64,000 nt of DNA, from the NCBI RefSeq assembly GCF_030816295.1, contig NZ_JAUSXV010000001.1, forward strand, positions 3,782,001 to 3,846,000. The letters are read 5' to 3'. The notes beneath the pieces are model-generated. The model was not told the origin of the DNA, ran no database searches, and was given only the letters and a program-made list of their open reading frames with translations. Below are positions 12,329 through 48,914 of the stretch, one piece after another (positions within the stretch are counted from its first letter, which is position 1; each line of letters begins with the position of its first letter). Position numbers and translations under genes: made by a program. This DNA comes from Microbacterium natoriense (lineage in GTDB: Bacteria; Actinomycetota; Actinomycetes; Actinomycetales; Microbacteriaceae).

Positions 12329-13204
12329 ATGCCGCACCCGCACCGCCCCTCGTGGAGACCCGTGCTGCGCCATGGCTCCGACGTGCGCTGGCTCACGGCG
12401 CGGTCGTGGACGAACCGTTGGTATCCGCAGGGCGTCGACACCGGCCTGTTGCAGGGGCGGCGGATGCTGGCGATCAGCTGGTTCCGGCAGGATCGGAACC
12501 GCACGCACCTCGCCTCACGGGTCTCATTCATCGACCTCGCCCGTCCGCGGCGCTTCGACGTCGCGCTCGCGATCGAAGGCGACGACGGGGCGCTCGAGCC
12601 CGCGCGGATCCACGTCGGCGGGCTCGCATGGTTCGGCGATCGGCTTTTCGCCGCCGCGACCAGGCAGGGCGTCTGGGAGTTCGATCTGGCCGGCGTCCGA
12701 CGTGTCCAAGGGACGACCGCACGACGCCTGACCGGCGGCTCCCGCTCGAAGACGCTCGTCGCCGTGCGCGCCCGCGAGCATCCGATCGATCTGCGCTGTT
12801 CGTTCGTCGGGCGCGTGTTCGATGAGGCGGGGCGTTCGCTGCCACGTGTGCTGATCGGCGAATTCCGCTCAGGCGAGGAGGGCCGGATCGGGGAGTTCGA
12901 GCTGACTGCGCACGGGTTCGCTCCGGTCCGAGAGTTCACCCCAGGTGTCCGTCATATGCAGGGCGCGGCGCTCTGGGGACAGGACATCCTGATCTCGCAG
13001 TCCGACGGCCTGCGGCCGGGTGCGCTGTGGCGCGGGAGTTTCGGCGCAGTCGAACCAAGCGCGACGGCACTGCCCGCGGGGTGCCAGGACCTCGCGCTCG
13101 ACCCGCACCTTGGCATGCTCTGGTCGCTGGGTGAGCACCCGTGGCACCGAGTCGTACGCGGCGTCCCCTTCGCTACGCTGGGAATCGGAGAGGATCGCGC
13201 ATGA
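12329..13204 (+). CDS. Hypothetical protein, possible beta-propeller, paired with a lipoprotein
   Basis: A 291-residue protein that I do not recognise. It has several blade-like strand repeats (for example GGLAWFGDRLFAAATRQGVWEFDLAGV and ALWGQDILISQSDG), suggesting a beta-propeller. No signal peptide is visible. Its stop overlaps the start of the lipoprotein gene (ATGA), so the two are made together. GACGAT, six bases before the ATG, may be a weak leaderless -10 box. Confidence 0.6.
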   Translation: MPHPHRPSWRPVLRHGSDVRWLTARSWTNRWYPQGVDTGLLQGRRMLAISWFRQDRNRTHLASRVSFIDLARPRRFDVALAIEGDDGALEPARIHVGGLAWFGDRLFAAATRQGVWEFDLAGVRRVQGTTARRLTGGSRSKTLVAVRAREHPIDLRCSFVGRVFDEAGRSLPRVLIGEFRSGEEGRIGEFELTAHGFAPVREFTPGVRHMQGAALWGQDILISQSDGLRPGALWRGSFGAVEPSATALPAGCQDLALDPHLGMLWSLGEHPWHRVVRGVPFATLGIGEDRA

Positions 13205-13821
13205 CCGCTACACGACAGCGCCTTGCAAGGCGCGCGATCACGGCTCTGCTCGTCGGCCTGATATGCGCCCTGCCGCTCACCGGATGCTTCGTGATCCCGC
13301 TCATCGACGACCGATCGCCCTTCGACGATCCGTTCGGCACCAGCACGACCGACGTCGCGAACGCGCTGCCCGTCGTTCAGGAGGCTCTCGAACTCGTCGA
13401 CACACAGGACGGGCTGTGGCGATACGAGGTCCTGCGCGGGCAGGGGAACTGCGAAGGCGCGTGCGATCTGCACGTCGAGGTGCGCGTCGTCCCCTCCGGC
13501 ATCCTCTCTGCATATCCGGAGGTCGATCTTGAGAGCGACCCTTCGCTGATCATCGTTCCCGAGCAGGTGCTGCGCGATGTGCTCGTGGCCGTCGTCCCGG
13601 CCGCGGAGCAGCAGCGGGTCGATGTTCGTGTGGTGCCGGGCAACGGCGACGCCGGCAGCAGCGATCTCGGCGACGCAGCCGATGCTCTGTTCGGGCCGCT
13701 TCCCACCGATGGGCTCTCCGAGGAAGCGTTCGAGGTCGACGTGAACCACTCCGATGAGGTGTCGGTCAACGCGAACACCCGGGATCAGCAGAATGTCCTC
13801 GAAGCGATGGGATTGGCCTGA
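13201..13821 (+). CDS. Predicted lipoprotein of unknown function
   Basis: A 206-residue protein with a basic N-terminus, a hydrophobic stretch and the lipobox LTGC, whose Cys is about residue 29. It should therefore be lipid-anchored on the outer face of the membrane. The mature part is acidic and has no domain that I recognise. A longer start at 13141 would place a soluble tail before the signal and is rejected. The four-base overlap with the preceding gene supports the ATG at 13201. Confidence 0.75.
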   Translation: MTATRQRLARRAITALLVGLICALPLTGCFVIPLIDDRSPFDDPFGTSTTDVANALPVVQEALELVDTQDGLWRYEVLRGQGNCEGACDLHVEVRVVPSGILSAYPEVDLESDPSLIIVPEQVLRDVLVAVVPAAEQQRVDVRVVPGNGDAGSSDLGDAADALFGPLPTDGLSEEAFEVDVNHSDEVSVNANTRDQQNVLEAMGLA

Positions 13822-28992: not shown

Positions 28993-29703
28993 TCATCGGG
29001 ACAAGTAGCCCCTCTGAGCTCGCGCATCCTCGAGCGACAACTCATGGATAGGCGCGGTACCGCCCTGTTCACACAACACTGCACCGCCTGCATAGAAACT
29101 CTTGTCAAAGGGTCTGATACCTAAAGCGGCGCAGTATTCTTCAAGCAGCTGCGGAGAGAACCGGTCGACAACACGTCGATTCTTATACGAATCCACATCC
29201 TCGAACGACAAAGTCTCACCATGCGCTTCAAACCTCCACCGACCGGAGGACTCCTGAGATACCGACACCGAGCGCACGTAGTTCAATACTCCGGATTTGA
29301 CAGGTCGTCCGAAGACCTCCAACTGCACCACGCCAAATCTCTTGGGAGGTGCGGCTCCTTCGTCTGAGGACACATACGTGGCTACAACTCCGTCAACATC
29401 GAGTCGCTGCGAAAGGTAGCCCACCCACGAGGCATGGTCACCCCCCTTGGCACCACAATCCACGGTTGCGGTCCACTCATTCCCATCGGTGCGCAACAGA
29501 AGCCGACGAGGATAGGCGCCGAGCGTTAGAGGTTCAAGCAGACGCGCGTTCTCTTCCAGCCCTCCCTCAACAGGCCGGGCTTGAGCAGACCGTCCAAGTT
29601 CTGTCGACCAGTCCATCCACGCTGCCACGAGGGCATCGACTGGAGCACGTACGAAGCCAATGGAGGAAGTAATGGGAGCAAGGCGCTCATCTAGTAGGGT
29701 CAT
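28993..29703 (-). CDS. Probable immunity protein for the RHS toxin
   Basis: A 236-residue soluble protein whose start lies six bases after the RHS stop, the standard place for an immunity gene. It contains SIGFVRAPVDALVAAWMDW and LRTDGNEWTATVDCGAKGGDHASWVGYLSQRL, a composition seen in unnamed proteins that follow RHS genes in other actinobacteria. No signal peptide is present, so it acts in the cytoplasm, as expected against a nuclease. The function is inferred from position. Confidence 0.65.
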   Translation of the reverse strand: MTLLDERLAPITSSIGFVRAPVDALVAAWMDWSTELGRSAQARPVEGGLEENARLLEPLTLGAYPRRLLLRTDGNEWTATVDCGAKGGDHASWVGYLSQRLDVDGVVATYVSSDEGAAPPKRFGVVQLEVFGRPVKSGVLNYVRSVSVSQESSGRWRFEAHGETLSFEDVDSYKNRRVVDRFSPQLLEEYCAALGIRPFDKSFYAGGAVLCEQGGTAPIHELSLEDARAQRGYLSR

Positions 29704-29709
29704 GCCGTC

Positions 29710-32700
29710 CTAAGGAACGATGAAGAGGTTGACAATACCATTGGGGTCGTTAGCGAGCAAACGGTCTGAGTGAGCCGGGCCACGTCCCGACGTGGGAACG
29801 TCATACTCCTCGTAGTACCTCCGCCCGTTCAGGGTATATTGCAGGTCAGGACGGTTCACGCCGACCCTGTCGCCGGAGATGTTAACTTGCTGCTGGTTGA
29901 CTCGCAGGTCAGTTGCGCCGCTAGCGCGCAACGACTCAATGCGGCTTTGAACGAAAGCATTTTGACTGACGCTTCCCCCCACTGGGCGATTCAACGGAAG
30001 CGCGAACGGAGCGGCGGGGTTCACGGCGACATCCTGCGGGAGCCGAACCAGAGTGGGGGTTCTTGTGCCGGTGGCAGTGCCGACACCTCCGATTCCTATG
30101 CCCACGCCGATGGTGAGTAGTGGTACGGCGGGGCGCAGCACGCGGTCGATGCTCTGGCTCGCGTTCCACCAGTCCTCGGCCCATTTGGGCCCTTTCTTTA
30201 CCTGCTGCTCTGCGAATGCTCGTCCGCATGCCTCGTTGATAGCGACCTGTGCCGGATTCATCCCGACTTTCATGTCGGTGGCGCAGTTGATAGGCCGTGG
30301 TTTAGGCGCTGGCACGACATGTGGCTGGGACGGCCCACAGGGGTCATAGGTGTATCCGCAACCGGGCAGTGAGTCATGTGCGGCGGAGATAAAGGTCCCA
30401 GAGCGAAGCGCGGGTGCCCTCATCGGTCGAACAGGGGACGCACCACCAAATTTCGACCCAGTTCGCTTTCCCGCGGTCTGATTTGCGTTCGTGTTCAGCG
30501 TGGTCGTAGCCGCCTTCACGAGCGCAGATTTAGTCATCTTGGCAGCGACGCTCTTGCCACCGTCTACCATCGGCATTGCCTTGATGACGTATCCGAGGTC
30601 ATCGCTGAACGAGACTGGTGTGTTCTCGATGTAGGCATATCGGTTCAGCGACTGAGGGCGTTCGAGGAGGCCGCGCCATTCGTCGGGCTGGACCCAGGAA
30701 CCTGTCCCCGTGTCGTAGTCGCGGGCGTAGTAGTTGTCCAGGCCCAAGGTCGGGTCACCTGGCTGCTGGTCGTTTCCAACGAGGCTGGACCATCCCGTGG
30801 ACTCGTAGTTCGCACCCCCGAAGTCCGCGTAGTCGACGAGGTCGGTAATCTGTCCATCCGCTCCCGCGGTCGCGGTCGCGTTGCGCTGGTCACCGAGAAC
30901 CCACTCGTTCCCGTACGTACCGTCCTGGAACGCGACGGCCCCGTACGGGTCGCGGTACAGGTCCGTGGCCCCATGCAGGTCACTGGATGTCGCGGCGGGG
31001 TCGAATCCGTCCCAGACCGTGCCGGTCGTGTTCGTCCCGTACTCGGTCTGGTCGGTCATCGAGGTGCGTCGGTCGAGGCCGTCGTAGGCGTACGATGTGG
31101 AGCGCCCATCGGCCTGCGTCGACAGGAGACGCCCCGCGGGGTCGTGGACGTACGAGGTCGACTGACCGTTCACCGTCTGCGACGCCCTGTTCCCGGCCCC
31201 GTCGAATCCGTACGACGCGGAGCCAGCGCCGGCACCTGTCGTCGTCATCGCAGTCAGCTGCCCGGCGGCGTTGAACTGCGCTGCCAGCTCTGAATCGCCC
31301 GCGGGGGTGCCGGTGGTCGTCACGCTGGTGCGGTTGCCTGCCGGGTCGTACCCGTACTCGTTGACTTCGCCGTCGGAGGCGGTCGACGACGCGAGCCGCC
31401 CGACCCGGTCATACGTGTACGTGTGCTCGAGCACCTCCGGCACGGCGGCTGCGGGCACTGGAGCCGCTGGTGCCTCCGCAACGGGCTCTTCACTGCCCGG
31501 GGTCCCCGGCGTCTCCGGTTCGGTGAGGTCGGGACCGGTGATGGTGCGGACCGTGTCGGTGACGTTCCCCGCCGGGTCGTAGTCGTAGTCGTACTGCAGT
31601 GAGGCACCCGCAGGGACCGGGGACACCGGCTCCGGGAGCGTGCGACGGTTCAGGTAGTCCCATGTCTTCACACACGGCTTCTGTCCACCCGCCGCCGGGA
31701 TATCCCGGTCCGCGTAGTAGTCGGATGCCGCGCACTGGTCGGTCGTCATCTGCAACGGCACCACCGGCTCCGGTGCGACCACCGGTGCAACCTCGGGCTG
31801 CGGGGTCTCGTGCCGCACCTGCGTGACCCGACCTGTCAGGTCATACGCGACGGACGTCGTGACCTGGTTGGGCCGGGTGACACCGGTGAGCCTGTTGTTC
31901 GCATCCCAGGTGTACCCGAGGTCCCCGTCCGGGGTGGACTGAGTGACCGGGTTCCCGGCATCGTCGAACGTGTACGCGGTCGTCGCACCATCGGGGTACG
32001 TCAGCGACTCGCGAAGGCCCGCCGCCGTGTATGTGGAGGTGAGGGTGTTCCCGTGGGTGTCGGTCTGCTCCAAGAGCCTTCCGACCTCGTCGTACACCCA
32101 CCCGGTGGTGCCGGTGGGGTCGTCCATCACGATGGGCTGCTGCTCCCCGTCGTACTGGAACGTTACGTCACCGTCAGCGCGAGTCAGGGTCTTCACGTCG
32201 CTGCGTGCGTCGTACGTGTACGCCGCGACCAGACCCGCGGGGTTCGTGACTCGGGCCACCCGCCCCGCCTCGTCATACGCGGTGGTCGTGGTGATGCCGG
32301 TTGGTCCGGTCTCCCCGGTCGGGCGGCCCGCCGCGTCGTATGTGAACGACGTGACCGCATCGAGCGGGTTCGTGACCTTTTCGAGCAGACCAGTCGCGGT
32401 GTAGGCGTACGCGGTCACGAGATTGGTGTCGGAGCTGTTGTCCGCGTTCGCGTCGAATCCTTCTGTGACCTCGACGAGTTGGCCGGCTGGGTCGTATCGG
32501 AAGGCGGTGACTTCTCCCACCGGGCTGGTCGTGGACGTCTGGCGTCCCGCATCGTCGTATGCGTAGCTGGTGACCGCGCCGAGCGCGTCCGTGGACGAGG
32601 TGACGCGGGAGGCCTTGTCGTACGTGTAGGTCGTAACCGCGCCGAGGGGGTCCATCTCGGAAAGCAGTCGCCCGGCTGCGTCGTAGGAGTACTCGGTACG

Positions 32701-35700
32701 TGCTCCGCCGGGGGCGATGATGGCCGTCGCTTGGCCGTTGCGGTCGTACTCGATACCTGTGACTCGACCGTCCGCATCGGTGATTGATGTGATGCGGCCG
32801 GCGGGGTCGTAGGTGAAGCTCGTGACTGCACCGGTCGCATCCGTTTCGGCCAGCACCTGGCCCGCGGCATCCACGTCGTACAGGGTCGGGTTGCCGTTGC
32901 GGTCAACCGTTCCGACGAGGTACCCATCGACGTCATACAGGTACTTCGTGACGAAGCCTGCCGGGTCGGTGATCTTCGTGACCCGGTCCATGAGGTCGTA
33001 CGCGTACGTCGTCTTCTCACCGGCGCTGTCCGTCTCGGAGACGACGCGGCTCGCGCTGTCGTACGCCACTTCCGAGGAAACACCGGTCGCATCGGTCGTC
33101 GCCGTAGGGCGACCAGCTGTGTCCATGTCGAATGCGGTCGTCGCTCCCAGCGGGTCAACGGTGGACGTCTGCAGCCCGGTCTCGTCGTAGGTGCGCTTCC
33201 ACTCCCCACCGTTGGGGTCGACGATGCCGACTGTGTTGTAGGTGTCGTCGAGTAGGAACTTGGTGGTTCCGCCCTCGGGGTCTGTCGTTCCGGTCAGGTT
33301 GTCTTCCGCATCGTAGGTGAACGACGTCGCCCCGCCTTCTGGGTCAGTGACCGTGACCAGACGCGCCATCGAGTCCCACGCGTACGCGGTCACGGCCCCG
33401 GTGGGGTCGGTCGCAGACGTCAGCTGTCCGTTTGCGTCATACGCGTACGCCGTGACCCCGCCCTCGGCATCGGTCGACGCGAGTAGCCGGTCAGCAGCAT
33501 CCCACCCGAACGACGTGACCCCACCTGACGGGTCAGTGACGGAGGTGAGTCGGTTGCCTGCGTCGTACGCGAAGGTCGTCACCCGTCCCAACGGGTCCAT
33601 GGAAGTGACGAGGTTGCCTCGAGCGTCGTACGCGTAGGTGGTCGCGGAGCCGGAAGGGAGGATGCTGCGGGTCAGGTCCCCGGCTGTGTCGTACTCGAAC
33701 CGGACCGTGGTGCCATCGGCCTGCTGAACCTCAGTAATGAGCCCACGGGCGTCGTAGACGCTCGTCTCTGTACGCTCCCCATCGAGGTCGGTGACCGTGG
33801 CGACATCACCGTCGGCGGTGTAGGTGTACTCAGTGACGGCACCTGCCGGGTCGGTCTCCGTCGTCAGGTTCCCGTCGCCGTCGTAGTCGTAGGTCCACGT
33901 GCGGCCGGCCTCATCGGTGTGAGACTCCACTTCGCCCGTGGACGTGAATGCCCATTTCGCCGTCTCACCAGCAGCGTTCGTGATACCCGTGATGCGCGAG
34001 CTGTCATCGAACTCGAAGACTGTCTCCTGGCCTTCGTTGTCCGTGTATGTAGTCTCGCCGTCTCCGTACTCGAACGTGCGGACGTTCTGCTTCGCATCCA
34101 GCTGTTTCGTCACACGACCCGCGCCGTCATACTCGTTCACGAGATAGGTGACGCCGTTCGGGTCGACCGCGGTCAGCATCCGATGTGCCGCGTCGTAACT
34201 GAACGACCGGCTCGTCCCGTCCGGGTACGACATCGAGACAAGGTCACCCGTGGCCGAGTACGCGAGTCCCCAGACGCGACCATCCGGGAGGGTGAACCCC
34301 GTGATTCGCCCCACCCCGTCGTTCGTGACCGTGATGGTCTGGCCCGCGGCATCCGTGACCGACGTGAGCGGAGTGAACTGATGCACGTTCCGGTCCGCCG
34401 GCCCGTATGTCAGAGTCGTCGCGTTGCCCTGCCGGTCGACATGGCGGACGAGCTCGCCGATGCCCCAGACATCCGCCGCGTCGAACACCCACGTCTCACC
34501 TGTGTCGCTGTCCAGCCGCAGTTGCCCTGCGCCGGCTTCCGCGAGCGTGAGCCCGAGACCGTCTTCACCCTCGTATCCCCCGTTCCCGTCGGGTGTGAAC
34601 ACGAACGACGCACCGTCACCCCGCACGACCATGACCGAGTCGTCGTCAAAGCGCTGCGCCCTGGCGCCGAGTCCGAACGTCCACCCCGCGCCCACGCGAG
34701 ACAGCCTGCCGTCCTGAGAGTTATAGACCAGTGATGCGCCGATGCTGCTCTCTCCAGGGCCGGTGAGGTCGAAGAGCGGGAAGGACTCGACGAGGTTTCC
34801 CGTCGAGAACGACACAGGGTCGGCACCGTAAGTCTGATAGTTCTGATAGCCGAGTTGCCGCCAGCGCGCGAGTTCGGCCTGCGACGGCGGTGACGGCCAG
34901 CCGCCCACGACCGGGTCGGTGCAGTCGAACCCCGCACCCTCCAGATACCCGCCGAGGCTGCGGAAGGCGCCATCGACGATGCTGAGGAACCCGTTGTCGA
35001 TAACGGGGCGGTCGAAGTTGTGGTCGAGGAACAGCGTCTCAATATGTGCATACGCGCCAGGAAGACCCGCATACGCAGTGAAAGGGAAGTTCGCGTCGGA
35101 CGGCTTCGCATTCGCCGGCCGGCCCGTGTAGGTCGGCATGTGGGTGAGGAACGAATCCCGGAGCGCGTTGTCAGCTCCGGAGCCGCGGGAGTACCCCATG
35201 GTGCCGCCGTTGCTGGCAGTTCCCCAGGCGTTCCCCTGGTTGGTTGCGAAACCGAATCCGACCGTCGCGACCGGATTCGCCGCTGCGGCGACACCCGTAC
35301 GCGTCGCTCGGGACACGAACGGAACCCCAGGCGGACGAGTGACGACGACCTGCGCGTTGCACTGCAGGGCCAGGTACGCGCTCAGCCCCTCCACGAGATT
35401 CCAGTTGTACGGGAATTCGGTCGCCGGGGACGGAGTGGTCACGATGCCTTCGTCGTTGTCGGGGTCCAGCACCACCACAGGTCCCGGCGGAACAGGGAAC
35501 GGGGTGCCGATCACCACGAACTGCGACAAGTGCGTGGACTCGCCCTTCACCGTCTTCGTCTCCGCATCGAAGTACGACGGCAGCTCCGTCCACGCCTCAT
35601 CCGGCGTCGACCGGGTATAGATCTTCAACGTAGAAGGGGAAACTCCCGTCTCCTCTACCCGCCCCATGTCGACATCGAACTCGAGGCTGATACCCGGGAT

Positions 35701-36267
35701 GACGTCCTTCACCACCGGGCCATGCTCGGGGTCCTCATCCGGAACGTCGATGAGCTCCGCCGGGAATGACGTCACCATCTCGCCTGCAGCGTCAACGGCG
35801 ACGATCTCGATCGGGTCACTCACCACGATGCCGGAGGTATCGACGACCGCAGACCGGCGCGCCTGCACCTCCGAAGGCGCTTGCGTGAGTGTGAGCGACA
35901 CGGGGCTCTTCACGTCGTGCCCAGAGAACACCGCATTCACCCCGAGATCGTCCGACGAAAGCTCGGCGCTCTCACCCGGCGTGAGATCGGATTCCGCCGC
36001 TTCCTTGACCGACGTCGCTACGGACAACCCGCCCGGTACAGCCGGCGGCGCATTCGACGACGTCGGTTCTGGCACCGGCGACTCCGAGGGGTCCGCGTCT
36101 TCAGGCTCGCCGTTCGCGTTGAGCCCCGCGGCGGCATAGACGCGCTGCAGCACCTCGTTGCGGGCCGCTTCCATAAGCTGAGCCGGCGTCATCGGAGCCG
36201 GCGCCACCGCTCCAATGCCGAGTACAAGCGCCGCCGCCGTCGAGGCGGCCAGCGAACGGAACCACAT
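29710..36267 (-). CDS. Secreted RHS/YD-repeat polymorphic toxin with nuclease-like C-terminal tip
   Basis: 2185 residues. A signal peptide (MWFRSLAASTAAALVLGIGA) leads into an acidic, proline-rich region. A DUF6531-like entry domain lies near residue 480 (DPVSFSTGNLVESFPLFDL), followed by dozens of YD repeats from about 620 to 1700 (pattern YDAAGRL...TDPAGAVT). The RHS-associated core is at about 1770-1885 (DPYGAVAFQDG...YYARDYDTGTGSWVQPDEW...SLNRYAYIENTP). After a 200-residue variable linker, the last 90 residues contain RPDLQYTLNGRRYYEEYD and SGRGPAHSDRLLANDPNG. This resembles a PD-(D/E)XK-type restriction-nuclease toxin (inference). RHS shells encapsulate and release the tip. The start overlaps the preceding stop by one base. 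Confidence 0.92.
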   Translation of the reverse strand: MWFRSLAASTAAALVLGIGAVAPAPMTPAQLMEAARNEVLQRVYAAAGLNANGEPEDADPSESPVPEPTSSNAPPAVPGGLSVATSVKEAAESDLTPGESAELSSDDLGVNAVFSGHDVKSPVSLTLTQAPSEVQARRSAVVDTSGIVVSDPIEIVAVDAAGEMVTSFPAELIDVPDEDPEHGPVVKDVIPGISLEFDVDMGRVEETGVSPSTLKIYTRSTPDEAWTELPSYFDAETKTVKGESTHLSQFVVIGTPFPVPPGPVVVLDPDNDEGIVTTPSPATEFPYNWNLVEGLSAYLALQCNAQVVVTRPPGVPFVSRATRTGVAAAANPVATVGFGFATNQGNAWGTASNGGTMGYSRGSGADNALRDSFLTHMPTYTGRPANAKPSDANFPFTAYAGLPGAYAHIETLFLDHNFDRPVIDNGFLSIVDGAFRSLGGYLEGAGFDCTDPVVGGWPSPPSQAELARWRQLGYQNYQTYGADPVSFSTGNLVESFPLFDLTGPGESSIGASLVYNSQDGRLSRVGAGWTFGLGARAQRFDDDSVMVVRGDGASFVFTPDGNGGYEGEDGLGLTLAEAGAGQLRLDSDTGETWVFDAADVWGIGELVRHVDRQGNATTLTYGPADRNVHQFTPLTSVTDAAGQTITVTNDGVGRITGFTLPDGRVWGLAYSATGDLVSMSYPDGTSRSFSYDAAHRMLTAVDPNGVTYLVNEYDGAGRVTKQLDAKQNVRTFEYGDGETTYTDNEGQETVFEFDDSSRITGITNAAGETAKWAFTSTGEVESHTDEAGRTWTYDYDGDGNLTTETDPAGAVTEYTYTADGDVATVTDLDGERTETSVYDARGLITEVQQADGTTVRFEYDTAGDLTRSILPSGSATTYAYDARGNLVTSMDPLGRVTTFAYDAGNRLTSVTDPSGGVTSFGWDAADRLLASTDAEGGVTAYAYDANGQLTSATDPTGAVTAYAWDSMARLVTVTDPEGGATSFTYDAEDNLTGTTDPEGGTTKFLLDDTYNTVGIVDPNGGEWKRTYDETGLQTSTVDPLGATTAFDMDTAGRPTATTDATGVSSEVAYDSASRVVSETDSAGEKTTYAYDLMDRVTKITDPAGFVTKYLYDVDGYLVGTVDRNGNPTLYDVDAAGQVLAETDATGAVTSFTYDPAGRITSITDADGRVTGIEYDRNGQATAIIAPGGARTEYSYDAAGRLLSEMDPLGAVTTYTYDKASRVTSSTDALGAVTSYAYDDAGRQTSTTSPVGEVTAFRYDPAGQLVEVTEGFDANADNSSDTNLVTAYAYTATGLLEKVTNPLDAVTSFTYDAAGRPTGETGPTGITTTTAYDEAGRVARVTNPAGLVAAYTYDARSDVKTLTRADGDVTFQYDGEQQPIVMDDPTGTTGWVYDEVGRLLEQTDTHGNTLTSTYTAAGLRESLTYPDGATTAYTFDDAGNPVTQSTPDGDLGYTWDANNRLTGVTRPNQVTTSVAYDLTGRVTQVRHETPQPEVAPVVAPEPVVPLQMTTDQCAASDYYADRDIPAAGGQKPCVKTWDYLNRRTLPEPVSPVPAGASLQYDYDYDPAGNVTDTVRTITGPDLTEPETPGTPGSEEPVAEAPAAPVPAAAVPEVLEHTYTYDRVGRLASSTASDGEVNEYGYDPAGNRTSVTTTGTPAGDSELAAQFNAAGQLTAMTTTGAGAGSASYGFDGAGNRASQTVNGQSTSYVHDPAGRLLSTQADGRSTSYAYDGLDRRTSMTDQTEYGTNTTGTVWDGFDPAATSSDLHGATDLYRDPYGAVAFQDGTYGNEWVLGDQRNATATAGADGQITDLVDYADFGGANYESTGWSSLVGNDQQPGDPTLGLDNYYARDYDTGTGSWVQPDEWRGLLERPQSLNRYAYIENTPVSFSDDLGYVIKAMPMVDGGKSVAAKMTKSALVKAATTTLNTNANQTAGKRTGSKFGGASPVRPMRAPALRSGTFISAAHDSLPGCGYTYDPCGPSQPHVVPAPKPRPINCATDMKVGMNPAQVAINEACGRAFAEQQVKKGPKWAEDWWNASQSIDRVLRPAVPLLTIGVGIGIGGVGTATGTRTPTLVRLPQDVAVNPAAPFALPLNRPVGGSVSQNAFVQSRIESLRASGATDLRVNQQQVNISGDRVGVNRPDLQYTLNGRRYYEEYDVPTSGRGPAHSDRLLANDPNGIVNLFIVP

Positions 36268-42104: not shown

Positions 42105-43399
42105 TCACCCGAACGGCACTGCCCACCACGGCACCGCCCCGACCTCGACGTGCCGCAAGGAGCCGTCGGATCCGAGCACACGGAGCGAGTCGGGCTGCCA
42201 CGAGTCCGGCTCGGCCACGATCACGGCCGTGGTCCCCGACGGGCCCGTGACCGCCCGCAGAGCGTCGGCCCCCATCTCGACCGTGTCGACGATCTCGCCC
42301 GTCGCGACCGACACGCTGCTCACCAGCCTCCGATCGGCGTTCACCGATTCGCGATGCTGCACGAGGACGTATCCCGACCCGAACCCTGCGGGCGACGCCG
42401 TCGCCTCTCCTGAAGAGGCCTGGGCTCTCGCCTCCTCGAGCAGCGCCTCGATGTCGTCGTGGTCGACATCGCTGAAGTCGCCCTCGATGAACTGCCCTGT
42501 CTCGAGCATCACGCCCAGAGGCGCCGCCTCGGAGACCGGGAGTATCTCCGCATCGACCAGCTCGGTGCGACGGACCGTGCGGCCGTCGGCCGACGTGATC
42601 ACGAGCGCGCGTCACGACTCACAGCCTCCGCGATCGTCTCGATCTCGACCGTCGTGCCATCCGCGCCCCGTGCCGTGTCCACGAGACGCGTGAGGGCGGT
42701 GGTGTCGAGGAGCGCCGTGGCACTCAGCGCACCGCGCCAGCGACCCGCGACAGCGGAATCCGCCGGAGACGCCGCCGACGTGCCGACGGGGATCTGCATC
42801 ACCGCACCCGAGCCCGTGAGAGCCACCACCGAGTTCGACTCGGCATCGAAGCCGTAGGCGGATGCGGCGAGCACCGCGTCAGCCCCGATACCTGCCACGC
42901 CTGTCCCCTCGGCGACGATGCCGCCGGTCACCGCGTCCAGGATCACGAGCCCGTCGTCTGTCGCGACGTAGACGAACGTCGAGTCGCCCGCGAGTGCCGC
43001 GGCATCACTGCCGAGGTCGTCGTTCAGGCGCTGATCCCAGAGCGTGTCGCCGTCGGAGAGCCGGATCGCCGCCGCTCGATGCTGGAACATCGGCTCGCCG
43101 AATCCCGGGCGGGAGTTGTCGGCGTAGACGACGATCGCCACCTCCTGCTCGTCCATGCTGATCACCGCCGCTCCCGGCAGGATCTCCAGGTCCCGCATCG
43201 GCGGCGCGAGCGCTGACGTCACGACGATGATCAGGCCGCCGATCAGCACGGGGGCGAACAGGAAGCCGAGAAAGCGGAATCGGATGCGCTGCCGCACCTT
43301 GTGCGGGTCGTGCGGTTTCCGGGGCGGAACCGGCGTCGATCCCAGGGGAAGAACCGTGCTGCCGTTCAGCACGTACCCTCGCGACTCGTTCGTGTTCAT
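42105..43399 (-). pseudogene. PA2928-like PQQ/beta-propeller membrane protein, split by a frame break
   Basis: The first part (43399 to 42599, 266 residues) has a cytoplasmic N-terminus, one membrane helix (about 46-68) and propeller-like blades (STFVYVATDDGLVILDAVTGG). The second part (42602 to 42105) continues with VITSADGRTVRR and further blades to a natural C-terminus. The parts overlap by ATGA, but the second begins mid-strand, so one base loss near 42599-42612 in a GCGCGC run is the simpler explanation. The whole would be about 431 residues, resembling PA2928 family proteins. Two coupled genes remain possible. Confidence 0.65.
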
Positions 43400-43479: not shown

Positions 43480-44799
43480 ATGAGCGCGCCCACCGATCTC
43501 TCTCCCGAGGCGCCGGCCGTGGAGTCGGGCCGGGCGCGGCATCCGCGCGCTCAGGTGATCGCACAGGCCTGGATGGAGCTCGGGGCATCCGTCGCCCCGC
43601 TGAGCAACGGATCGGGGCGCCCCCTCGCCCGCACGTCGAAGTTGATCCTCGATCCGCTGGTGATCAGGCCTCTGCAGAACCCGGGACTCGCCGCCGGGAC
43701 GCTGACGGACGATGCCGCGGTCGAGCTTCGGGAGCGCATCCGCGCAGCCGGCCCAGATCTCTCGGCGGCGGCCGCCTGGTTCCTCGAGTTGAAAGCCGCG
43801 CGGCGTCGGCTGCGCATCACCGACGGCAATCCGCAGGAGAAGTACTTCCAGCGTTGCTACGAGCTTGCCCGCACCGCGGGCTCGCCCGCCGCGGATGCTG
43901 TGGCCGTGGCCGCCGGGGCCGTGTCGGAGATCGCTCAGTCCTCGGGCGGCTCCCTGCTCGCCCGAGTGCGTCAGCTGCTCGCAGACGAGGAGCACGCGGC
44001 GGTTCTCGGCCGAGAACTCGATGACGCCTGGCGCCGGCGACCGGCGTCGATGACGCCGCCGGCACCGGCCGAGACCGTCGCCGCGGCGCTCGACGAGTGT
44101 CCTACCGGCGAAGGCTCCGCTGCGTTCGACGCCCTCGTCGCCGGAGCGGCGGGAACAGCCTCGGGCGCCGGACTCGCCGGCGAGGGGATCGCACAGGGAC
44201 TCGGGCTCACCCGGCATCCGCTTCCTCCCCTGCCCCGGATCGGCGAGACGGCCTCGAAGCGCGACCTGCCCCTGCCGTTCGACCGCTCCATCTTCGAACG
44301 CCTCTTCGCGGCGCTCTCCGGAGGAGTGCCGCCGGACCTCGCCGTCGACGCCGAGGGGCTGCTCTCCGAGGAGATCGTCCGGTCCGCGCGCGTGTGGCAG
44401 CTCGGCGAGGAGGAGGGCCGCGTCGCGATGCTTCTGGGCGCAGAGGCGAGCAGCGCTCTCGAGGAGAACGGCCCGGCGCGACCGACGGCGGCGCACCGGC
44501 TGCTCGCGGCGCGCTGGCACCGCGAGGCCTACGTGCGGCGGGCGCTGCGGCTGCCCGCCGATCTCAGCGGTGTGCCGGCCGCCGTCGTCGACGACGTGCG
44601 CGCCGTGCGCCGCGGCTATCTGCGCCGGCTCTGGGTGAGGCTGCACGGCAGAGAGCTGCGCGATCAGCGCGTCGAGGGTCGTGACGTGTGGGATCTCCTC
44701 GACGGCGTGCTGCGGTCGGTCGTGATGGATCAGCGCCAGCGCCTGAAGACGGCCATGACCCGCGGGGCCGACAATCGGGAAGCGACGGAGGCCGCATGA
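43480..44799 (+). CDS. Hypothetical protein, first gene of the CHAT-TPR operon
   Basis: A 439-residue soluble protein, rich in alanine, arginine and predicted helices. I do not recognise the family. Its C-terminal 130 residues are strongly helical and basic (REAYVRRALRLP..., VVDDVRAVRRGYLRRLW). A glycine/alanine-rich low-complexity stretch lies near 220-240. No signal or membrane segment is visible. Its stop overlaps the next start by ATGA. Fixed coupling with TPR and CHAT genes suggests it is a substrate, sensor or effector of the protease. That is inference. Confidence 0.7.
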   Translation: MSAPTDLSPEAPAVESGRARHPRAQVIAQAWMELGASVAPLSNGSGRPLARTSKLILDPLVIRPLQNPGLAAGTLTDDAAVELRERIRAAGPDLSAAAAWFLELKAARRRLRITDGNPQEKYFQRCYELARTAGSPAADAVAVAAGAVSEIAQSSGGSLLARVRQLLADEEHAAVLGRELDDAWRRRPASMTPPAPAETVAAALDECPTGEGSAAFDALVAGAAGTASGAGLAGEGIAQGLGLTRHPLPPLPRIGETASKRDLPLPFDRSIFERLFAALSGGVPPDLAVDAEGLLSEEIVRSARVWQLGEEEGRVAMLLGAEASSALEENGPARPTAAHRLLAARWHREAYVRRALRLPADLSGVPAAVVDDVRAVRRGYLRRLWVRLHGRELRDQRVEGRDVWDLLDGVLRSVVMDQRQRLKTAMTRGADNREATEAA

Positions 44800-45869
44800 G
44801 CGTGCAGATCCGTGTGCAGGGAGACGCCGTGCGCGTCTCTTCGTCCGAGGCTCTCCCCGATCGGATGCCGTATCTCGTCGCCCTCGTCGAGGTCGCTGGC
44901 GGGCTGCTGCACTGGGATCCGACGGAGCACATCGACCTGCCGGACGCGGATGTCGACGACCTGCACGCAGCGACCGGCTGGCTCGCGGAGATCTACGGGC
45001 AGGAAGTGGCGGATGCCGTCGGCCAGGGCGCCGACGCGACGCTGCCTCTCGGCGACGGCGATCCGGCCATCGTCGACGCCGTCCTCCGGTTCGGGCATCT
45101 GGCCTGGGCGCGGGCCTGGTGGCCTGCCGGAGCCCGGTTTCCCGCCCTCGACCCCGCGCTGCTGGCCGCCGAGGCGGCGGTGACCGCGCACGATGTCGAG
45201 CACCTCCTCGACGATGATCGGGCGATCGAGCGGGCGCTGGCGGATGCCGCGGACGCCCCCTCGGCGCTGGCTGCCCTTCCTCCGGCCTTCGCCGCGGAGG
45301 CTGAACGGCTGCTGTCGACGCTGACGGACCTCTCCGAGGACTACGGAGTCGCGCTCGAATCCGCAGAGCCCGTCGCTGTCCGCGAGGACTGGGCCCTCGC
45401 GGCGAGCGGAGTCCACGATGTCCGGGAAGGGGTCGAGATCGCGTCCGGCCGCGCCACGGTGAGATGGAGCGACGTGCCCGCGCAGACCGTGGATGCCGAA
45501 GCCGAGGCTCGGTGGGTGATCCGTCAGCGTGCCGGCGCCGCTGTGCTGCGCGTCGAGGCGGCGGCCGTCGATTCCCCGCTCGCAAGCCGCTCACTGATCG
45601 CTCGATTCGGTCCGGCGGAGCTCGGCGTGGAGGTGGTGCTGCGGCGCGAGACGACGCTGTTCCAGGGAGAGGCCGAGGTCCCCGCATCCGCTCTGTTCCT
45701 CCCTTCGGCCGAGCACACGCTCTGGGTACGCGACCCGGTTCTGAGTCCCGAAGACGACGGTGCCTCCGATCCGCACGACGCTCGCGAACAGGTGCTCTCC
45801 TTCGCGGCCACGCGGCTGCTCTCGCCCGCGGCATCGCTGGCAGAGCGCACGGCCGGAGCCCGGCGGTGA
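44796..45869 (+). CDS. Hypothetical protein, second gene of the CHAT-TPR operon
   Basis: A 357-residue acidic protein of unrecognised family. The N-terminus MSVQIRVQGDAVRVSSSEAL looks like a small beta domain. A helical middle part follows (AAVTAHDVEHLLDDDRAIERALADAADAP), then a beta-rich C-terminal half (AEARWVIRQRAGAAVLRVEAAAVDSPL). No enzyme motif, signal peptide or membrane segment is seen. Both ends overlap neighbours (ATGA and GTGA), so its dosage is tied to the protease. Confidence 0.7.
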   Translation: MSVQIRVQGDAVRVSSSEALPDRMPYLVALVEVAGGLLHWDPTEHIDLPDADVDDLHAATGWLAEIYGQEVADAVGQGADATLPLGDGDPAIVDAVLRFGHLAWARAWWPAGARFPALDPALLAAEAAVTAHDVEHLLDDDRAIERALADAADAPSALAALPPAFAAEAERLLSTLTDLSEDYGVALESAEPVAVREDWALAASGVHDVREGVEIASGRATVRWSDVPAQTVDAEAEARWVIRQRAGAAVLRVEAAAVDSPLASRSLIARFGPAELGVEVVLRRETTLFQGEAEVPASALFLPSAEHTLWVRDPVLSPEDDGASDPHDAREQVLSFAATRLLSPAASLAERTAGARR

Positions 45870-47485
45870 CGTCTCCTGAGGAACGGCCCCCGAGCGCCGT
45901 GCTCGGTCGCATCCCGGCGACGCCGCGATGGAAGCCCGGACGCGACAAGAACAACGAAGCGGCGATGATGCTGCACGCCGGGCGCGTGGACGAGGCCGCT
46001 GCCCTGCTCGGCGAGGTCGTGGCGCTCACCCGCGTCGCCGACGTCGACGGCGAGGGGCTGGACATGCGCGCCAGGGCGCTGCTGAACCTCGCGGCGGCGC
46101 ACGAGTTCCGAGGCGATCTGGTCGAGGCTCTGCGCACCGCCGATGAAGGCCTCGCCGCAGCATCCGAGGCTCTCGAGCTGATCGGCGACGAGCGGGCCAC
46201 ACGCACCGTGCAGCTCAACGGGATGCTCGCGAGGGCGCAGACGCTGACGCAGATGGATCGTCTGGACGACGCCCTCGCCGGCATCGACGACGCCGAAGCG
46301 CTGCTGGACTCCGAGGGCCTCGACCAGCGCGAGCTCCTCCAGTTCTCCGTGCACAACGCGCGCACCGCGGTGCTGATCGTGACCGGGCGACTGCAAGAGG
46401 CGGACGACGAGGCCCAGCGCGCGCTCGCGGTCGCGCTATCCGTCGGACCTGCTCTCTCCGGACACGCATACGCGAACCTCGGCGTGATCGCACAGCGCAC
46501 CGGAGACGACGAGGCGGCGCGCGAGTACCTGCAGCTCGCGTATCGCGCGCAGGAGCTCTCCGGCGATGCCACCAGCCGCCAGCATGCGGTGGAGAACCTC
46601 GCTCGCGCGGCCCTGCAGGAGGGGCACATGCGAGAGGCGGAGGAGGGCTTCCGCAAGGCCGCAGAGCTCGCGCAGCAGATCGGTCTCACGACGCGGCTCG
46701 CCGCGAGCAGGACGGGCCTCGCGGCGGTGCTGCTGCAGTCGGGACGGGCAGGAGCCGCGGCGAAAGCGCTGCGCACCCTGCTGGACGAACTCGATCCGGA
46801 TGCGGCCGTGCACGAGCGACTCGAGGCGTACTCGTTCCTGGGCGACGCGGAGTCGACGCGCAATCGCTACCCGGCGGCCGACGACGCCTACAGGGCCGCC
46901 CTCGACCTCGCCCGATCACCGCGCGACCGCGGCAGGATCAACCTGCGCCGCGCCGAGATGCACGCCGAGTGGGCGTCGATGTCGATCACCCCTCGCTCAC
47001 GACGCGCCCGCCTCGAGAAGGCACGGGATCTCGCGATCCCCGTGCTGCTCGTCACCGAGGCACTGCGCGACGGATTAGCGCCCGGGGGCACCCGCGAGCG
47101 CTGGAGCCTGCAGGTGGCCGCCCCTGCGCGAGAGCTCGCGTTCCGTCTCGCACGCACGCTCGGCGACTCGGCGCTGCTCTTCCAGCTCGTCGAGAACGCT
47201 GCAGCCTCCGTGACCCTGCAGGCGAGTGCCGCGGCAGACACCGCCGTGATCCTCCCCTTCGAGCGTCCGAGCGGCCCTCGTGATGACGTGTGGGAGCGCG
47301 ATGAGCTCCCCGCGGCCGCTGCGGGGCTGGTCGGTGGCGAAGGCACGGCGTCCGTCCGCTTCGCCCCGCCACCGCGGGTCGTCGCCGTGCCCGGCGGCGA
47401 GCCGGTGCTCGACGAATGGATACGCACGGCCGAGGCCGAGTACGGCATCCCTCTGCGCACCGAGACGATGGTGCCGGCGTGGTGA
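45866..47485 (+). CDS. Tetratricopeptide repeat protein of the CHAT operon
   Basis: A 539-residue protein made largely of TPR-like helical hairpins from about residue 30 to 370, for example NNEAAMMLHAGRVDEAAALLGEVVAL and HAYANLGVIAQRTGDDEAAREYLQLAYRAQEL. The last 120 residues are not TPR. TPR arrays usually bind and gate CHAT proteases or their substrates. The start is GTG at 45866, overlapping the previous stop. Its own stop overlaps the CHAT start. Confidence 0.85.
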   Translation: MTSPEERPPSAVLGRIPATPRWKPGRDKNNEAAMMLHAGRVDEAAALLGEVVALTRVADVDGEGLDMRARALLNLAAAHEFRGDLVEALRTADEGLAAASEALELIGDERATRTVQLNGMLARAQTLTQMDRLDDALAGIDDAEALLDSEGLDQRELLQFSVHNARTAVLIVTGRLQEADDEAQRALAVALSVGPALSGHAYANLGVIAQRTGDDEAAREYLQLAYRAQELSGDATSRQHAVENLARAALQEGHMREAEEGFRKAAELAQQIGLTTRLAASRTGLAAVLLQSGRAGAAAKALRTLLDELDPDAAVHERLEAYSFLGDAESTRNRYPAADDAYRAALDLARSPRDRGRINLRRAEMHAEWASMSITPRSRRARLEKARDLAIPVLLVTEALRDGLAPGGTRERWSLQVAAPARELAFRLARTLGDSALLFQLVENAAASVTLQASAAADTAVILPFERPSGPRDDVWERDELPAAAAGLVGGEGTASVRFAPPPRVVAVPGGEPVLDEWIRTAEAEYGIPLRTETMVPAW

Positions 47486-48801
47486 ACGGCTGGCGCGATC
47501 TCACCGACCTCGGTGCGCCGTTGCCCCTGGCCCGCACCGAAGGAGCAGCGGTGCTGGTCGACCTGCCGGAGGGGCAGCGCCCCGTCGCCCGGCTGCGCTT
47601 CGTCGACGGGGACGACCTGTTCGTCAGCTGGGTCTGGGAGCATCAGCGCAGCTCGCCGAGGATGACCCTGATCGGACGGGAGCTCGTGACGCCGGCACTC
47701 GATCGGCTCGCCAGAGCGCTGCCCTCGCCGCTGCCGGGCGAGAGCGGGATCGACGCCCTGACCAGGGCCCTCACGCGTGGCGACCTCGTCGACCCGGATC
47801 GCGAGCAGGAGCTCGCCGGCCTGCTCACCTCGGCGCTGATCCCGCAGTGGCTGGGCGCGGAGCTCGATGCGCTCGAAACGGCCGGACTGCGCCCCCACCT
47901 GCGCATCCAGTTGTCGCCGTCGACCGCGCAGCTGCCGTGGGAACTACTGAGCACGTCGGGCCGAGAGCGCGGCATCGACATGGCCGATGCATCCGTTCTG
48001 CTGCCTGCCACCCTGCGCAACGATCCGTCGAGGACGGTGTCGCCGTGGTCGCCCCTGTCACCCGTGGCGACCGCGCTGGACCCGGCGGTTCCCGGCTTCT
48101 CGGCCACGAGCGAACTGGGAAGCGTGCTCGGCGAGGTCGCGGCCGATTCGAGCCTCGCGCGGGCCGTCGACGACCTCGGCACGCGGCGCCTGCCGCGCGG
48201 CGAGGCATTCCGCCGGGCGGACATCGACCGACTCGCGCTGGCTGAGGCGGTCGCGGATGCGGGGCGGCTTCTGTACGTCGGGCACGTCACCGCCTCGACA
48301 CACGCTCTCGACGCGCGGCTGCATCTGTCCGACGGTGCGGACGCCCCCGGTACGACCCCTCCCGTCGGATCGCACCGTCCGTACTCCGCCGCCGAGATCG
48401 CGCTGGGCGGAGCGGGCCTCCCACCGCTGCGCGCTCCGAACAGGGTGGCGCTGATCGCCTGTGATTCGGGCACCGATCTGCGTTTCGCAGAGCCCACCGG
48501 GCTCGTCGCGGCGTTCCTGCACCGCGGCGCCGAGTACGTCACGGCCACTCGATGGACCCTGCCCACCGAAGCGGGGCTGCGCCGTCTCGTCCCTGGTCTC
48601 GGCGATCGGGCCGAGGGGATGCTGACGGATGCCGTCATCGCGGTGAATGCCGCTCACGAGTCGGACGACCCGATCAGCGCGCTGGGCGCGTGGCAACGCG
48701 ATCAGCGCAGACTGTGGACGTCGACCGGAGACCCGCGTCACTCCCCGATCATGTGGGGCGCGTTCGCGACGGCCTGGGCTCCGGAGCCGGTGCGGCTCTG
48801 A
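47482..48801 (+). CDS. CHAT domain-containing (caspase-like) protease
   Basis: A 439-residue protein. The C-terminal 300 residues are a CHAT (caspase HetF associated with TPRs) peptidase. The catalytic His is in LLYVGHVTAST (His268) and the Cys in RVALIACDSGTDLR (Cys327), with the usual TRWTLPTEA and ALGAWQRDQRRLW stretches after them. A smaller N-terminal domain (about 1-110) precedes it. The recognition strand is ...LSPSTAQLPWELL. It is the last of four overlapping genes. CHAT proteases cut partner proteins after activation, often in cell-death or defence settings. Confidence 0.9.
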   Translation: MNGWRDLTDLGAPLPLARTEGAAVLVDLPEGQRPVARLRFVDGDDLFVSWVWEHQRSSPRMTLIGRELVTPALDRLARALPSPLPGESGIDALTRALTRGDLVDPDREQELAGLLTSALIPQWLGAELDALETAGLRPHLRIQLSPSTAQLPWELLSTSGRERGIDMADASVLLPATLRNDPSRTVSPWSPLSPVATALDPAVPGFSATSELGSVLGEVAADSSLARAVDDLGTRRLPRGEAFRRADIDRLALAEAVADAGRLLYVGHVTASTHALDARLHLSDGADAPGTTPPVGSHRPYSAAEIALGGAGLPPLRAPNRVALIACDSGTDLRFAEPTGLVAAFLHRGAEYVTATRWTLPTEAGLRRLVPGLGDRAEGMLTDAVIAVNAAHESDDPISALGAWQRDQRRLWTSTGDPRHSPIMWGAFATAWAPEPVRL

Positions 48802-48914
48802 CACCGTCTGGTGCCCTCAGACGCGCTTGCTCCGCATCACCCCTCGTGTGCGCGAGCGCGGGAACTCGCCCCTTCTTTCCGACAGAGTGAGTCATCGGGA
48901 CGGCCCACCAGGGG

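Follow-up and report, generated by a model that had tools for sequence, protein, structure and literature searches.

Proteases with a caspase-like CHAT domain are common and, to our knowledge, the substrates known for them are few, being those of the separase, gasdermin and Craspase cases. In bacterial gasdermin-CHAT operons the CHAT protease is encoded directly beside its substrate. Here we consider a locus of four genes, A to D, in a 64,000-nucleotide stretch of the genome of Microbacterium natoriense (contig NZ_JAUSXV010000001.1, positions 3,782,001 to 3,846,000; this whole stretch is called the window below), in which a CHAT protein (D) and a TPR protein (C) are encoded together with two further proteins, A and B, and in which the sequence of B points to a possible substrate, to the bond that would be cut and to the protease that would act next.

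Several described systems bear on how such a locus might work. The Craspase of Jettenia, a TPR-CHAT enzyme, cuts between AIAA and SSEK (PMC11106740), and for another Craspase the level of Csx30 rose when its cut ends were blocked by a tag (PMC10028731). Degrons for ClpXP that are hidden at a cut site have been described for LexA and IrvR (PMC5742171), and ClpXP of E. coli degrades GFP-yalaa and not GFP-laa, with a free alpha-carboxylate needed for recognition (PMC7652416).

The four-gene unit and its TPR and CHAT proteins

The four genes, with the residues on which the argument turns, lie in the window as follows.

43480..44799, plus strand: gene A, 439 residues, all-helical, without a named family
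44796..45869, plus strand: gene B, 357 residues, mixed helical-rich part (1-183) and beta-sandwich (from about 213) with a linker between them
45381..45407, plus strand: linker motif of B, residues 196-204 (R-E-D-W-A-L-A-A-S), ssrA-like, candidate cut after Ala203
45866..47485, plus strand: gene C, 539 residues, TPR protein, presumed activator or substrate holder of D
47482..48801, plus strand: gene D, 439 residues, CHAT (caspase-like) protease by family
48283..48285, plus strand: codon of the catalytic His268 of D
48460..48462, plus strand: codon of the catalytic Cys327 of D

Each gene overlaps the next, by ATGA at the A-B junction (44796-44799) and by GTGA at both the B-C (45866-45869) and C-D (47482-47485) junctions, and the 4-base overlap of A with B recurs in 19 of 26 loci for which this junction was compared, one of which (L001) is near-identical to the window. 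Since homologues of A to D occur in unchanged order in six loci (L001-L006), and since 388 homologues of A and 79 of B were found at E<=0.001, the four open reading frames (ORFs) can be taken as real genes. The genome that carries them is a single contig of 4.19 Mb. A terminator-like hairpin past the end of D (48852-48869) was set aside as it was at chance level, with 1 found against 0.6 expected.

Pfam assigns C to TPR_12 (1e-13) and D to CHAT (PF12770; 1.1e-10, 41.8 bits, the cut-off being 24). Residues 268 and 327 of D are His and Cys respectively, and both are invariant in 23 of 23 aligned D sequences, these having been picked from D loci retrieved beforehand. By profile and by its His/Cys dyad D is therefore a member of the CHAT family, and proteolysis by it is predicted. 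In 4 of 28 loci (L052, L054, L059 and L060) C and D form a single open frame of 934-996 codons, to each of which D aligns with its His and Cys kept; when three of these fusions were examined with Pfam, the TPR model scored above its cut-off in two and below it in one. Because of these fusions C and D are best regarded as a TPR-CHAT protease in split form. Neither D nor a D profile matched any PDB chain at E<=1.

A and B belong to no family that we could name. Neither had a match at E<=1 in Pfam, NCBIfam or PADLOC, nor at E<=0.01 in PHROGs, and their profiles matched no PDB chain sequence at E<=1. When 25 members of the A family and 80 of the B family were each scanned with Pfam, the only matches were weak, isolated and restricted to one member each. 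AlphaFold2 gave confident models for both proteins, with a mean predicted local distance difference test score (pLDDT) of 90.8 and a predicted template modelling score (pTM) of 0.72 for A, and 92.9 and 0.90 for B; Foldseek found no match at E<=0.001 for the A model in PDB or BFVD, or for the B model in PDB. Across 83 A sequences 41 positions are invariant, many of them Arg, Trp or acidic, in a protein for which there was no fold match. The A of L007 was excluded from an alignment because of a stop codon in its stretch. A preliminary description of the window, made from its letters, had proposed four overlapping plus-strand genes encoding a TPR protein, a CHAT protease with intact His268 and Cys327 and two proteins of no recognised family, and each of these points is borne out here, the last within the libraries scanned.

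The kind of protease encoded by this locus is already known. It is for the quartet, the A and B families and the tag-like linker discussed below that a literature search, outside of which most subscription journals lie, found no description; nor did it find the CHAT domain, Mycobacterium and TPR together in one paper, and in the accessible part of Kaur 2020 (PMC7159879) the term CHAT was not found.

The preliminary description had also asked whether A and B travel with TPR and CHAT genes, as opposed to turning up mostly unlinked from them, and the distribution of A and D does not bear out the second possibility. Among 394 Actinomycetes genomes, A (E<=1e-3) was present in 34 and D (E<=1e-20) in 35, with both in 33, A only in 1 and D only in 2, and the two proteins were confined to an identical 7 of 137 genera. 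The exceptions are a 61-codon match to A that contains a stop (G221), a partial match to D that contains a stop (G116) and a genome in which D was found and A and B were too divergent for that search (G332). In genus g21, inferred to be Mycobacterium from the names of homologues and from lysX-like and infC-like neighbouring genes, A was found in 53 of 78 genomes, of which 52 also have D, the remaining genome (G490, A only) being a fragmented assembly of 84% completeness. The gap between A and D is 90 to 3,091 bases in the 32 pairs that share a contig. Most loci are arranged A-B-C-D and 9 of 9 g21 loci C-D-A-B, and the quartet is one unit. Homologues of A are also on record for Mycolicibacterium smegmatis, M. 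goodii and Mycobacteroides species, which provides a tractable host for laboratory work.

A tmRNA-tag-like motif in the linker of B

We looked for B in 41 loci and found it in 36, which together with that of the window gives 37 proteins; the loci without B were L008, L068, L069, L070 and L078. L008, a weak Thauera match (38% over 84 residues), was dropped since the profiles of A to D all scored 20 bits or less there. The linker of B is hypervariable, with an entropy of about 3 bits at positions flanking a short motif, and across 80 sequences the lowest entropy of any six-residue segment in the protein is that of residues 199-204 (WALAAS), in which L, A and A are invariant. Residues 202-206, which overlap this segment, are the only run of three or more in the B model with pLDDT below 50.

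The motif takes the form R-x-[DE]-[WYF]-A-L-A-A-[GS]. All 37 B proteins have its core, as ALAA in 35 and ALVA in 2, and the core is preceded by an aromatic residue in 32, with D or E at -2 in 27, R or K at -4 in 21 and Gly directly following in 32. Even the very divergent B of G332 retains it, as IYALAAGDDD. A search of 439 called ORFs (176,233 residues) gave 10 occurrences of the pattern [WYF]ALAA[GS], all of them in B; the gene caller behind these ORFs is a simple one that overlooks genes, B genes included.

ARAGORN identified a transfer-messenger RNA (tmRNA) in 22 of 22 genomes checked, with tags that all end in [FY]ALAA. The tag of the window's own genome is AETKRTDFALAA, and when its R-T-D-F-A-L-A-A is set in register with the R-E-D-W-A-L-A-A of B the two agree at the Arg, the Asp, the aromatic residue and ALAA; in the g21 tag (QRD[FY]ALAA) the Arg stands one place nearer than B's own R at -4. 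Cutting behind the last Ala would leave a tag-like C-terminal end, and a C-terminal degron is predicted to arise in this way, its sequence core being that found in all 37 proteins. The yalaa that suffices for ClpXP is, by our comparison, about as long as the stretch conserved in B.

A proposed proteolytic switch and its rivals

We propose, at a probability of about 0.4, that D, while C holds it, cleaves B behind ALAA and thereby creates an ssrA-like degron for ClpXP, with A-B-C-D acting as a regulated-proteolysis switch. In this scheme C and D would work as a split TPR-CHAT protease, and B would be both substrate and switch, its flexible linker holding a latent tmRNA-tag (ssrA) degron between two domains. 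On activation of C and D, D would cut B after ALAA (in the window, between ALAA and SG), leaving an N-terminal half that would end in REDWALAA-COOH and that ClpXP, the reader of such C-termini, would remove. A, which is probably the partner of B because it is B's closest neighbour, would then be freed or re-routed. Membrane-protein-like genes that lie divergent from A in several genera weakly suggest a membrane-linked input. The preliminary description had remarked that a protease fixed in an operon with unknown proteins will often cut them or be gated by them, and a candidate cleavage site in B now gives that remark a definite place, the cut itself being predicted.

Comparison with Craspase is instructive in two directions. 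Craspase sites are described as unconserved, and changing single residues around one of them had little effect (PMC11106740). Since those sites vary and tolerate substitution, the strict conservation of the motif in B would ask for a second reader besides the protease, and ClpX seems the natural candidate. The same observations nonetheless weigh against our proposal, as does the position of the cut in Csx30, which falls in a loop of the C-terminal domain and not in an interdomain linker (PMC10028731). Further points tell on the same side. Plain ALAA is frequent in these GC-rich proteomes (92 occurrences in the 176,233 residues), and when Leu is also permitted before it, as in a Jiangella-like B, 12 of 15 matches are in B and 3 fall outside. 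The motif is itself not uniform, in that the 37 B proteins include the 2 with ALVA, 5 without Gly after the core (that of the window has Ser) and 5 without an aromatic residue before it. The pattern was fixed after its variants had been seen, and the loci are kin, nine of them being from g21, so the binomial p-values for the motif make the case look stronger than it is. Pfam did not reach E<=0.1 for CHAT in the three C-D fusions scanned, and one C-D pair (L068) stands without A and B nearby. Cleavage and degradation of B are both predicted steps, and it may be that the motif serves for docking or inhibition and stays intact.

This last idea is the closest competitor. The ALAAG of B would serve as an uncut docking segment or pseudosubstrate plug, seated in the TPR groove of C or in the active site of D, which would keep D inactive for as long as no signal displaces B, the real substrate lying elsewhere. 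A short conserved motif within a hypervariable linker of low model confidence is typical of linear binding motifs, and the C-D pair that has neither A nor B near it looks as though D has other substrates. A plug by itself, however, leaves unexplained why the motif should match the tmRNA tag in register, aromatic, acidic and Arg positions included, and why Gly or Ser should directly follow ALAA in most copies, and we regard it as somewhat unlikely.

The preliminary description had pointed out that CHAT-TPR pairs occur in bacterial cell-death, defence and stress systems. On a reading of that kind the quartet would serve against phage or in programmed death, with a toxic part set free when D cuts A or B, in the manner of gasdermin or Craspase. 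It is true that a TPR-CHAT enzyme serves type III-E CRISPR defence (PMC10028731), that the operon is patchily present in Microbacterium (7 of 99 genomes), that a variant locus carries kinase-TPR and FHA-FtsK genes, and that homologues of A with 39-48% identity occur on plasmid-labelled records, five from Streptomyces and one from Nocardia, the two that were examined (L104 and L105) showing A followed by B with its motif, C and D. PADLOC-DB 2023, however, has 0 families that match A, B or D at E<=1, with only weak TPR models matching C, and among ten neighbouring proteins its matches are confined to an ATPase and a helicase. These neighbours, whose genes we take to be an ABC-F-type ATPase gene and an Lhr-like helicase gene (the ABC ATPase assignment is backed by Pfam, the helicase being outside that scan), also mark a single chromosomal site, as at least one of them flanks the operon in 10 of 11 Microbacterium loci (neither does in L007). 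In g21 the operon adjoins a gene that we presume to be lysX-like in 3 of 3 listed loci, with an infC-like neighbour, judged by eye, in 2 of the 3. None of 24 viral stretches matching one of two A peptide patterns encodes a relative, and no toxin family in the scanned libraries matches A or B. A role in cell death or defence is unsupported by these data, and we consider it distinctly unlikely.

Less likely again is a pathway of stress response or envelope quality in which the motif lets B, or C and D, sense the load of ssrA-tagged proteins or ClpXP, with no cut needed. The resemblance of the motif to the tag consensus would fit this, as would the membrane-protein-like genes adjoining A in several genera, but ClpX reads a free carboxylate (PMC7652416) and the motif of B is internal.

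We hold, at rather less than even odds, that a cut by a caspase-family protease makes an ssrA degron on an operon partner and hands it to ClpXP, in a relay present in Actinomycetes that include fast-growing mycobacteria and built with two proteins, A and B, for which no described function was found. If this is true, caspase-like cutting and tmRNA-tag degradation would be united in one switch. Because a substrate, the bond to be cut and the next protease are all suggested by the sequence, the idea could be tested quickly with purified proteins.

Variant loci, neighbouring genes and comparison with known systems

Two further loci show other arrangements. The first (L067, 962-13514), in the same-genus genome G332, encodes an FHA-FtsK ATPase, a C-like TPR protein to which a Ser/Thr kinase is fused, a CHAT protein and divergent forms of A (579 residues, profile score 52 bits) and B (432 residues, 68 bits), with an unidentified 381-residue protein overlapping the end of B; a by-eye reading of 12369-13511 as a nuclease was not confirmed and was not used. 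The second (L068, 7493-10376, minus strand), in G129, is a C-D pair; the 16 kb examined there contain neither A nor B, and the same genome has a full quartet elsewhere. Because of these two loci C-D appears separable from A-B, and the kinase fusion raises the thought that phosphorylation may be one input of the system.

Upstream of A in the window lies an accessory gene, read divergently.

42105..43399, minus strand: divergent accessory gene, beta-propeller-like, with a hydrophobic N-terminal stretch (by eye), made up of overlapping frames 42599-43399 and 42105-42602

Its match to PQQ_2 (E=0.0015) is below the cut-off. Within the genus the first frame has strong matches in 5 of the 7 genomes with A and in 1 of the 92 without it, with an additional weak match in G056 (8e-4); relatives adjoin the operon in L047, L048 and L050, and the counterpart in L003 (7622-8917) is one open frame of 431 residues. 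In G075 the divergent neighbour gene remains and A to D were not found at that site, which suggests that the cassette is gained or lost whole. Elsewhere the genes divergent from A are DUF3592-like (below cut-off; membrane proteins by eye), as in L006 (8079-8849), L055 (3783-4571) and L060 (11153-12010), and L056 and L076 have a short relative between D and A. At some distance in the window (29713-36267, minus strand) a 2185-residue RHS-repeat protein is encoded, followed by a small gene (28996-29703) without a Pfam match, the pair resembling a polymorphic toxin and, possibly, its immunity gene.

Of the known systems, the one most readily set beside this locus is type III-E CASP, or Craspase, in which Csx29 cuts Csx30. 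Both combine TPR and CHAT with a two-domain, linker-bearing partner encoded in the locus, and one Craspase orthologue cuts between AIAA and S (PMC11106740). The differences are considerable. PADLOC found no Cas7-11 (gRAMP) among A to D or the ten neighbouring proteins (28996-55347, other small ORFs there being unscanned), no CRISPR array was found in 33000-60000, where there were only three two-copy repeats, and the A and B profiles have no PDB chain match. Unlike the sites of Csx30, which are described as unconserved and located in a loop of the C-terminal domain, the motif of B is conserved and sits in an interdomain linker.

Gasdermin-CHAT operons share with this locus a CHAT protease encoded beside its putative substrate, and differ from it in that A and B have no gasdermin family match. 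A further likeness is to regulators of the LexA and IrvR type, in which an internal degron adjoins the point where a cut separates two fragments (PMC5742171). Those proteins cut themselves by means of an S24 fold, and no S24 peptidase domain was matched by Pfam in 80 B members at E<=0.1; B would instead be cut by a separate CHAT enzyme, at a motif that is tag-like.

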